Shown: positions 37,788-49,126 of the stretch, in pieces
Numbering within the stretch: position 1 is the stretch's first letter
Layout: the number at the start of each line of letters is the position of its first letter
Source of the DNA: Flavobacteriales bacterium
GTDB lineage: Bacteria; Bacteroidota; Bacteroidia; Flavobacteriales_F; PHOS-HE28
Assembly: GCA_020852835.1 (NCBI GenBank)
Contig: JADZAC010000024.1
Coordinates: 1-49,126, forward strand
Direction of reading: 5' to 3'
DNA length: 49,126 bases
Position numbers and translations under genes: made by a program
The notes under the pieces: generated by a model
Database searches by the model: none
The model's input: the letters and a program-made list of their open reading frames with translations, nothing else
Told to the model about the DNA's origin: nothing

Positions 37788-37808
37788 GCGGGGCAGCCCC
37801 TCCCGGGC

Positions 37809-37921
37809 AATGACGCGCATCCTTGCGGTCGATCGGCACGCGCACAGGCCGCCCCACAGGAGCAACCTCATCCGCCTCTACTCCGGCCCGGTGGCCCACC
37901 AGATCGCCGCAGGCGAAGCGG
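37809..37921 (+). pseudogene. Degenerate copy of the mutL leader and 5' coding end
   Basis: This stretch aligns without gaps to 39286-39398 at roughly 80% identity by eye. It covers the mutL upstream leader (ATGAC then GCGGTCGATCGG) and about the first 20 codons. The position of the mutL ATG reads AGG (37858-37860), so the start codon is lost. Readable codons are NLIRLYSGPVAHQIAAGEA against the intact DIIRLLPDHVANQIAAGEV. Similarity stops around 37921. It is 1.5 kb before the intact gene and shows no other mutL part. Confidence 0.75.
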
Positions 37922-38104
37922 CGGTGCCACCCGCACCTGGCGGGCCACGACCCAGTTGACCGGCCGCGGTCCGCTGCAGATCGGCGGTCGAACGATCTGC
38001 GGGCCATGGCCAACGCACTCCGCACACGGTTCCTCGAACCCGGTACTGTTGCAACACTTGCCCCAATGCGGACCATCTGCGGCTCGCCCACGCATGCGGC
38101 ACGC

Positions 38105-38552: not shown

Positions 38553-38614
38553 GCAGGTACGGCGCTCGACCACCGCGCAAGGGGGCAGGCGGCTTTTCCA
38601 GGGCAACCGCATCT

Positions 38615-38829
38615 AAACTACGGGCCGGCCATCATTCAAACCTGGCTCGATCATGCCTTGCCCCTTAGAGCCTGTTTAGGATCTCTTCAAACTCGTCCTC
38701 CGGTCTCTTTTCCGCCCATGCTTCACCGGAAAATGATCCCGTAGACACCGCTACGCGATGATTTTCCGGCTTCGCCTGAACGAAAAATAGCCACGGAGTC
38801 CTTCGTTCAAGAGATCCTAAACAGGCTCT
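38615..38829 (+). repeat. Dispersed repeat, copy A
   Basis: Bases 38615-38666 match 48955-49006 with 6 differences in 52, and 38667-38786 match 49007-49126 with 1 difference in 120. Weaker similarity continues to about 38573. Copy B runs off the window, so the full extent of the shared unit is not known. Confidence 0.9.
38667..38829. mobile_element. MITE-like inverted-repeat element, complete copy
   Basis: A 163-bp element bounded by perfect 21-bp inverted ends (38667-38687 and 38809-38829, beginning AGAGCCTGTTTAGGATCTCT). Inside are further stems: CCGGAAAAT at 38726-38734 with ATTTTCCGG at 38761-38769, nested CGTAG/CTACG, and TGAACGAA/TTCGTTCA near the right end. It has no reading frame and could not move by itself. 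The GAGCCTGTT end resembles some IS ends, but I could not name a parent. No clear target duplication is seen. Confidence 0.7.
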
Positions 38830-38910
38830 TGGTTGAATGAGCGCGCCCGATCGGCTTTGTACCGGGCTGATCCCGCGCAGTACAAAGGCCAATGCCGTGC
38901 TGAAGGCACG

Positions 38911-38951
38911 GCACACTTCAGCCCATGGCGGTGCCATGGGCTGAAGTGTGC
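38911..38951. repeat. Perfect palindrome, 19-bp arms
   Basis: GCACACTTCAGCCCATGGC at 38911-38929 pairs perfectly with 38933-38951 around the 3-nt loop GGT. It shares the central CCCATGGCGGTGCCATGGG with the next palindrome, while the outer arm bases differ. Confidence 0.95.
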
Positions 38952-39052
38952 GCAGATACGGCAGAGGGCTGTAGGCCCGGAACATCATGAGCCTTGTTTT
39001 TCATTGCCCCGTTCCACCTGGCCTATGTGCGTGGCCTTCAGCCCCGCTCGGA

Positions 39053-39101
39053 CCCGCAACATGCAAGCCCATGGCGGTGCCATGGGCTTGCATGTTGCGG
39101 G
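39053..39101. repeat. Perfect palindrome, 23-bp arms
   Basis: A 23-bp arm (39053-39075, starting CCCGCAACATGCAAG) pairs perfectly with 39079-39101 around the same loop GGT. The inner 9 bp on each side and the loop equal those of the palindrome at 38911-38951. Confidence 0.95.
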
Positions 39102-39334
39102 CCTTTGGCCCTGTGAAGCGGTGCCCGCGGTGCAGCTGCACCAGGCAGGGCTTCGGCCTTGCCAGCCAGCGCCAAGTGCAGGGACAGATCCAACGATCAT
39201 CAAGTTGATCCATTGACCCTCAATGGCCCATGAGGAAGAATTTTATAGGTGCGTTTGCCCTAGCGGCCCTCCCACCCCATTGCCGAATGACCTGCATCTT
39301 TGCGGTCGATCGGCCCGCGCACCGGCCACCCCGC

Positions 39335-41161
39335 ATGAGCGACATCATCCGCCTCCTCCCCGACCATGTGGCCAACCAGATCGCCGCGGGCGAGGTGGTG
39401 CAGCGCCCGGCCAGCGTGGTGAAGGAGCTGCTGGAGAACAGCGTGGATGCCGGCGCCACGGACATCACATTGGTGGTGAAGGATGGTGGCCGTACCCTGG
39501 TGCAAGTGATCGACAACGGGCAGGGCATGGGCCCCACCGATGCCCGCACCAGCTTTGAACGCCACGCCACCAGCAAGATCCGCACGGCCGATGAACTGCA
39601 GACGGTGCGCACCATGGGCTTCCGCGGGGAGGCCCTGGCCAGCATCGCCGCCATTGCCCAAGTGGAGCTGAAAACGCGCCGGGCGGAAGATGAACTGGGC
39701 ACCCGCCTGCTGATCGAAGGCAGCCGCACCATGGCCCAGGAAGCCGTGGCCTGCCCTGCGGGCACCGCCCTGCAGGTGCGCAGCCTGTTCTACAACGTAC
39801 CGGTGCGGCGCCAGTTCCTCAAGAGCGACCCGGTGGAGATGAAGCACGTGATGGACGAGTTCCAGCGCGTGGCCTTGGCCCACCCGGGCATCCGCTTCCG
39901 GCTGGTAAGCAATGAACAGGAGCTCTTCCTGCTGGAGCCCGGCAACGAGCGCCAACGCATTGTGCACCTCTTCGGCCGCAAGTACGATGAACGCCTGGTG
40001 CCCGTGGAGGAAACCACCGACTTCGTGCACGTGGAGGGCTTCATCACCAAGCCGGAGTTCGCCAAGCGCAGCCGCGGTGAACAGTACTTCTTCGTCAACC
40101 GCCGCTTCATCCGAAGCCCCTACCTGGAACACGCCGTGCGCAAGGCCTACGCCGAGCTGGTGGCCAAGGACAACTACCCCGGTTGGTTCCTCTTCCTGGA
40201 GATGGACCCGGCGTGGATCGATATCAACATCCACCCCACCAAGACCGAGATCAAGTTCCGCGACGACCGCGCGGTGTATGCCATCGTGCACGCTGCGGCG
40301 CGACGGGCCCTGGGCCGCTTCAACATCACCCCCAGCATTGATTTCGAACCCGAGCCCGCCCTGCTGAACAGTGCCACGGCCACCGGGCCCGTACAGGGCG
40401 AACCGCCCATCGGCGGCGGCCGTTGGCGCCCGCAGGACCTGCCCGTCACGCCCTCCGTTTCCGGCTGGCAACAATTGTTCGACCTGGGCAACGAGGGCAT
40501 CGGCCAGCGCAATGTGCCGGAACCGGTCCCCTTGCCCGGGCCCGGCCCCGCTCCCAAGGCCAAAGGTGCCCGACCCATGGACCTCGAAGGCACCGGCCAA
40601 CGGCCCGTGTTCCAGATGCTGGGCCGCTACATCCTGGCCCAACTGAAATCGGGTTTCGTGGTGGTGGACCAGCGCCGTGCGCTGGAACGCATCCTTTACG
40701 AACAGGCCTTGCGCGCCCTGCAACAGGGCGGGGGCATCAGCCAAACGCTGCTCTTCCCTGTAACCTTGGAACTGAACGCCCCGGACCACGCCCTGCTCAC
40801 CTCCATACTGCCCGAGCTGAACGCTTTGGGCTTCCAGCTGGAACCGCTGAGCGGCCGCACCGTGGTGGTGAACGGCGTGCCCGCCGAAAGCGGCGATGAC
40901 GATCCCGCCGACCTGTTGGGGCAGTTGCTGGAACAAACCCAGGCCCAGGGCGGCGCGCTGAAGACCGACCGCCACGCCACCCTGGCCCGCAGCATGGCCC
41001 GCAGCGCCGTGCACCAGCCCGCGCAAACCATGGGCGCCGCGCAGATGCACGACCTCATCGACCGGCTCTTCGCCTGCGAAATGCCCTACTACACCCCGGG
41101 CGGCAAGCCCGTGCTGATCACCTACGGCCCACAGGAGCTGGACGAACGTTTCGAACGCTGA
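39335..41161 (+). CDS. mutL: DNA mismatch repair protein MutL
   Basis: The 608-residue product (ATG 39335, MSDIIRLLPDHVANQIAAGEVV) has the GHKL ATPase domain in residues 1-330: ELLENSVDAGAT, IDNGQGM, FERHATSKI and GFRGEALASIAAI. A proline-rich linker follows, then the C-terminal dimerisation domain. MutL couples MutS mismatch recognition to excision. The last ~40 residues hold FACEMPYYTPGGKPVLI, as in Bacteroidota and other MutL. I do not see the DQHAxxE(x)4E nuclease motif (VVVDQRRALERILYEQ is the equivalent region), so the nuclease site may be degenerate. The frame opens at 39230 without similarity. Confidence 0.95.
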   Translation: MSDIIRLLPDHVANQIAAGEVVQRPASVVKELLENSVDAGATDITLVVKDGGRTLVQVIDNGQGMGPTDARTSFERHATSKIRTADELQTVRTMGFRGEALASIAAIAQVELKTRRAEDELGTRLLIEGSRTMAQEAVACPAGTALQVRSLFYNVPVRRQFLKSDPVEMKHVMDEFQRVALAHPGIRFRLVSNEQELFLLEPGNERQRIVHLFGRKYDERLVPVEETTDFVHVEGFITKPEFAKRSRGEQYFFVNRRFIRSPYLEHAVRKAYAELVAKDNYPGWFLFLEMDPAWIDINIHPTKTEIKFRDDRAVYAIVHAAARRALGRFNITPSIDFEPEPALLNSATATGPVQGEPPIGGGRWRPQDLPVTPSVSGWQQLFDLGNEGIGQRNVPEPVPLPGPGPAPKAKGARPMDLEGTGQRPVFQMLGRYILAQLKSGFVVVDQRRALERILYEQALRALQQGGGISQTLLFPVTLELNAPDHALLTSILPELNALGFQLEPLSGRTVVVNGVPAESGDDDPADLLGQLLEQTQAQGGALKTDRHATLARSMARSAVHQPAQTMGAAQMHDLIDRLFACEMPYYTPGGKPVLITYGPQELDERFER

Positions 41162-48847: not shown

Positions 48848-48954
48848 GGGCGGCGTTTGGGGCACGTTGCCGGGCAACCAAAGCTGCTGGTGATCGGTGG
48901 CGGGGCGCCCCCAGTGGCCGGATCACGCCAGCTTCGGCCAGGGTAAACGCACCC

Positions 48955-49126
48955 AAACTACGGGCCGGCCATATTTCAAACCTGGCTCAATTATGCCGTG
49001 GCCCTTAGAGCCTGTTCAGGATCTCTTCAAACTCGTCCTCCGGTCTCTTTTCCGCCCATGCTTCACCGGAAAATGATCCCGTAGACACCGCTACGCGATG
49101 ATTTTCCGGCTTCGCCTGAACGAAAA
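48955..49126 (+). repeat. Dispersed repeat, copy B, cut by the window edge
   Basis: It carries the same 52-bp flank and the first 120 bp of the inverted-repeat element found at 38615-38829. The left inverted end begins at 49007 with a single T-to-C change. The right inverted end lies outside the window. Direction is the same as copy A. Confidence 0.9.

Follow-up and report, generated by a model that had tools for sequence, protein, structure and literature searches.

A 161-bp, non-coding MITE derived from the IS5 family lies nested within a second MITE, which has ISAs1-type ends and is here called element X; the family is new, while its kind is known. The window, i.e. the whole stretch of DNA analysed here, is the entire contig C24 of the source genome (G000:C24, 49,126 bp), which belongs to an assembly of 3.44 Mb in 96 contigs. 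A preliminary description of the window had proposed a MITE-like inverted-repeat element at this position, to be checked by counting copies in the genome and its relatives, by looking for an IS with the same ends and by examining target duplications and empty sites. That proposal is now supported by many copies, shared ends, 3-bp TNA duplications, empty sites that differ by the element plus 3 bp, and IS5-family ISs of two congeners, both broken or partial, which share the 21-bp ends. Very probably, the MITE is an IS1031-like derivative of the IS5 family that resides in another non-autonomous element, itself bearing ISAs1-type ends. An uncultured Flavobacteriales lineage thereby gains two MITE families, one nested in the other, along with candidate partner ISs.

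Ends, extent and fold of the MITE

The MITE is bounded by 21-bp perfect terminal inverted repeats (left, 38667-38687, + strand; right, 38809-38829, - strand), which correspond to 24 bp at 96% identity when extended. Within the whole 49-kb window just three perfect inverted pairs of at least 16 bp occur within 300 bp, one of which is formed by the MITE ends, while a 19-bp pair (38911-38951) and a 23-bp pair (39053-39101) are both located inside X. The left target duplication is TTA (38665-38667, reading CTTA/GAG across the junction), its A being included in the left repeat, and the right one is TTG (38829-38831), which equals TTA with one change and is common to the copy on contig C85. Because the outermost A/T pair of the 21-bp repeats thus falls in the TNA duplication, the element proper is GAG...CTC (GAGCCTGTTTAGGATC...GATCCTAAACAGGCTC, 38668-38828, + strand), 161 bp in length. 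The terminal inverted repeat consensus of the family is GAGCCTGTTYRGGATCTCTT.

The MITE strand folds into a long imperfect hairpin with a predicted energy of -40.7 kcal/mol, as opposed to -17.2 in shuffles (z -8.5). A central stem and loop (CCCGTAG ACACCG CTACGCG region, 38735-38760, + strand) forms a conserved core, around which the outer stem covaries. No transposase is encoded. The preliminary description was therefore accurate with regard to the perfect 21-bp ends, the nested internal stems and the lack of coding capacity, as well as in reporting a second copy at 49007 with one mismatch per 120 bp (49007-49126, 1/120). This second copy belongs to another composite of X and MITE (48939-49126, + strand; X left arm 48939-49007, MITE from 49008) and is incomplete because contig C24 stops inside the element. 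Contig C77 stops at the same element base, the stretch shared by both contigs being exactly the last 127 bp; the common stop looks like an assembler k-mer break at the repeat.

Copies, genomes and spread

The source genome holds eight MITE copies by our searches, two on C24, one each on C85, C77, C20, C58 and C49, and a half copy on C44, a count that includes two copies cut by contig ends. With the MITE as query, matches were obtained in 19 of the 58 genomes searched (own genome counted), all from one genus, and no match in 23 genomes from other families of the class. When the composite of X and MITE served as query, 26 of the 45 genomes searched within the genus were matched. Searches of plasmids and phages returned no match, and named matches to the MITE ends were mostly Flavobacteriales or Bacteroidetes MAGs. 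In total, 71 distinct MITE copies were gathered from this genus of high-GC Flavobacteriales MAGs, 67 of them with usable flanks; in most copies the homology stops at identical bases and the contexts are unrelated. Between the window copy and the copies of other species, identity is 93-99%, compared to 70-80% for mutL of the same species, which points to a recent spread of the MITE between species. A length variant of about 183-188 bp is common to several congeners (L056, L057, L058, L059), and in G005 (L164) nesting is seen again, with a MITE of this type at 706-891 enclosed by an older MITE (594-943).

Target site and insertion at stop codons

Identical flanking 3-mers were found at 22 of 46 copies, every one of them TNA, a number that was reached in 0 of 10,000 shuffles; TNA is present on both sides at 27 of the 46. 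Among 33 copies with a perfect duplication the target reads CTNAG (C in 31/33, T and A in 33/33 each, G in 22/33). As the element starts with G and finishes with C, both junctions rebuild CTNAG (CTNA/GAG...CTC/TNAG).

Classification of the 67 copies with usable flanks places 32 on a stop codon, 31 in intergenic regions and 4 in coding sequence, compared to 34 : 100 : 468 for the CTNAG background, which was taken from 449 kb of the same genus; the classification used genes predicted by a simple codon-usage gene caller. The stop class comprises targets that coincide exactly with the stop of a predicted gene as well as those displaced by one base (TAG within CTTAG). For all copies, the preference for stop over intergenic sites is significant (Fisher p = 4e-4), as is the avoidance of coding sequence (p = 3e-32), although for imperfect duplications the better of the two versions was used, which slightly favours stops. 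Copies with perfect duplications, which are free of this bias, show 18 stop, 13 intergenic and 2 coding insertions (stop vs intergenic, p = 6e-4). When stop codons are compared with sites 2-50 bp downstream, the excess over the CTNAG background is weak (p 0.03-0.06). Of the genes tried, seven are confirmed by Pfam, and the argS, priA and carboxyl transferase domains extend up to the duplicated stop, ending at the last residue or very close to it.

An insertion that hits a stop codon leaves either TAA or TGA, via the duplication, or TAG, composed of TTA and the first G of the element. Since the stop codon is rebuilt at the junction, the gene stays unbroken. A copy may have an effect on the gene that precedes it. 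The stop-codon pattern may be due entirely to selection against insertions elsewhere. A bolder reading, in which the MITE is adapted to harmless insertion, with CTNAG and its terminal G and C rebuilding stops so that it prefers and survives at these sites, and its maintained hairpin then acting as a new 3' end for the gene, seems rather unlikely to us. Literature searches on this stop-codon habit found no description of it in the papers covered, which is not proof of novelty. The pattern offers a simple and testable account of the way in which a transposon can multiply in a genome packed with genes while doing little harm.

Nesting in element X and history of the window copies

Five X copies contain the MITE at the identical spot and in identical orientation (one of them with half a MITE and two cut by contig ends). 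Five further aligned X copies (C54, C42, C85b, C5, C38) are empty, the missing stretch being precisely the MITE plus 3 bp, and thus represent paralogous empty sites. Given the same position and the same orientation, it was probably X that took the MITE along to several sites. Among the five filled copies, however, divergence amounts to 0-1.7% in the MITE vs 7-22% in the surrounding X, and for the ten pairs, which are not independent, the difference gives Fisher p values of 2e-5 to 2e-3. The two window copies differ at 10 of 69 positions in the left X arm vs 1 of 119 in the MITE, which bears out the earlier observation that the inner part is more conserved than the flank. If the MITE had inserted once and X had then spread, this alone would not explain the low MITE divergence, which instead implies conversion or repeated entry; the MITE copies in X would thus have been homogenised or re-supplied.

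With respect to the window copies, the MITE might have arrived in X on several independent occasions, each time at the same CTTAG site, rather than once, ahead of the spread of X. Apart from the divergence values, this would account for the copy on C44, whose X arm groups with X copies such as C42 (4/65 left-arm differences), yet whose half MITE shows no difference from the MITE of the first window copy (C24a). On the other hand, all five MITEs share one orientation, the altered right duplication TTG is common to C24a and C85a, and conversion between MITE copies accounts for the same data. Hence, we regard repeated entry as a possible but doubtful history. That the MITE has diverged so little compared to its host element makes it a clean case for comparing conversion with repeated insertion.

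Covariation of the hairpin and remaining explanations

In a consensus hairpin derived from 36 aligned copies, 94.6% of cells are paired. Changes on both sides occur in 18 of 34 pairs, corresponding to 116 cells, whereas shuffles give 38 and sliding of the partners no more than 23; cells here count sequences rather than events, and a few subfamilies supply most of them. The hairpin is thus maintained by compensatory changes, which exceed what a passively decaying MITE should show and count against a plain-MITE explanation.

These compensatory changes (18/34 pairs; 116 vs 38 cells) would also be expected if the hairpin were a domesticated functional unit, such as an RNA 3'-end structure or regulator, kept by selection rather than by mobility, and the same holds for the location of about half of the copies directly 3' of a stop codon and for the lower divergence of the MITE compared to its host X. 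However, wobble pairs are tolerated in the hairpin in similar numbers on both strands (33 G-T vs 23 A-C mismatches on the + strand), and this asymmetry is not convincing as a sign of RNA function; there is thus no clear sign of one strand acting as RNA. In addition, the presence of the MITE is patchy across congeners, many intergenic sites lie far from stops, terminator-like matches within the hairpin are weak, and palindromic arms can also stay alike via template switching or the spread of a few subfamilies. Taken together, we consider domestication of the hairpin improbable and retain a mobile MITE.

A plain segmental duplication, in which the window copies are alike because a larger stretch was copied, is highly improbable: homology does continue beyond both ends when the window copy is compared with the C85 copy (665 bp at 94%), and beyond the left end for the second window copy (C24b), C77 and C44, as the preliminary description had anticipated for this case, but it does so because the MITE sits within X, which has its own ends and differing outer flanks. 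Most of the remaining copies stop at the MITE ends, lie in unrelated contexts and have TNA duplications, and together with the empty X copies they rule this explanation out.

The host element X

X extends from 38599 to 39261 with the ends CAGGGCAACCGCATCTAA...TATAGGTGCGTTTGCCCT (consensus ends CAGGGCAAACGCATCTAA); it is a non-autonomous element of about 500 bp, or 663 bp including the MITE. At least 11 copies are present in the source genome, and in the composite search of the genus near-full copies were seen only there. A congener carries an ISAs1 transposase (G032:C219; NF033564 at 1e-101) in an IS whose ends match those of X in 16/18 and 17/18 positions. ISAs1 elements generate target duplications of 8-10 bp, and the filled X copy on C85 (C85a) is flanked by a clean 9-bp duplication, AATGCGCCC, which is eroded at other X copies. 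By its ends, X is classed as an ISAs1-type, non-autonomous MITE.

Both perfect hairpins of X (19 bp, 38911-38951; 23 bp, 39053-39101) share a common core, AGCCCATGGCGGTGCCATGGGCT. The sole match in an Rfam scan, to Acido-Lenti-1 (RF01687), is located in an X hairpin arm (38896-38940, - strand), where it overlaps the 19-bp hairpin and barely exceeds the threshold (38.8 vs 37 bits). Some Acido-Lenti-1 matches may be mobile-element hairpins.

In the stretch 39230-39335, the open frame of mutL has its first ATG within X. Because most congeners align to mutL from about codon 33-36, translation probably begins at 39335 instead. At 37801-37934, some 1.4 kb upstream of the gene, its 5' leader and start recur in a decayed copy (IRLYSGPVAHQIAAGEAA vs IRLLPDHVANQIAAGEVV).

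Candidate partner ISs and mobilisation

A 917-bp IS of a congener (G009:C72) has the ends GGGCCTGTTTGGGATCTTTTC / TAGCCTGTTCAGGATCTTTTG, which are the MITE ends with few changes. Its broken transposase matches PF13340 and PF01609 as well as the NCBIfam model NF033580 (IS5 family) at 1e-39; the flanks of this copy, AGA / TAA, form no clean target duplication. The second candidate is a partial IS5-family remnant in another congener (G065:C146), where CTAA is followed by the end GAGCCTGCTCAGGATCTTTTG. Both are thus broken or partial copies from outside the source genome, in which no further end match at up to 3 mismatches and no PF13340 match were obtained. Two further elements were rejected as partners, namely a multi-copy IS5-like element of G024, for which no matching ends were found, and an IS of G012 (PF13340; one end GAACCTGTTTGCG after TTAA), which has just the outermost bases in common with the MITE.

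We propose that the shared 21-bp ends would be bound by an IS5-type transposase acting in trans, which would then place the 161-bp element into a CTNAG target, thereby duplicating TNA; ends, target and duplication are as observed, and it is the action of the transposase that we infer. Since no autonomous partner was found in the source genome, its copies probably move only on arrival of a partner IS.

Comparison with known systems

The target motif of the IS1031 group is TNA, and it is the 3-bp TNA duplication that argues for placing the MITE in this group, the NCBIfam model acting at the level of the IS5 family only. Three-nucleotide insertion sites are common in the IS1031 group (PMC2516522), with which the MITE shares such sites along with a candidate partner IS carrying its 21-bp ends, whereas it differs in being devoid of a transposase. 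The eukaryotic NuwaII group of PHIS transposons, relatives of IS5, uses the target C/TNA/G with a probable 3-bp TNA duplication (PMC4482050), and its likeness to the MITE is one of target choice only. X resembles the ISAs1 family in its ends, which match a congener ISAs1 IS, and in the 9-bp duplication at one copy (C85a), but differs from it in having no transposase, in its length of about 500 bp and in its two perfect hairpins. Compared to MITEAba12 (PMC6382973) and the MITEs of Coxiella burnetii (PMC5896051, reviewed in PMC10969869), the MITE described here is likewise short, non-coding and present in multiple copies across a genus, with terminal inverted repeats in common with a full IS and with target duplications. 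Its ends are different, its 3-bp TNA duplication contrasts with the 9-bp duplication of MITEAba12, and it is set apart from both by a strong covarying hairpin and by frequent insertion exactly at stop codons.
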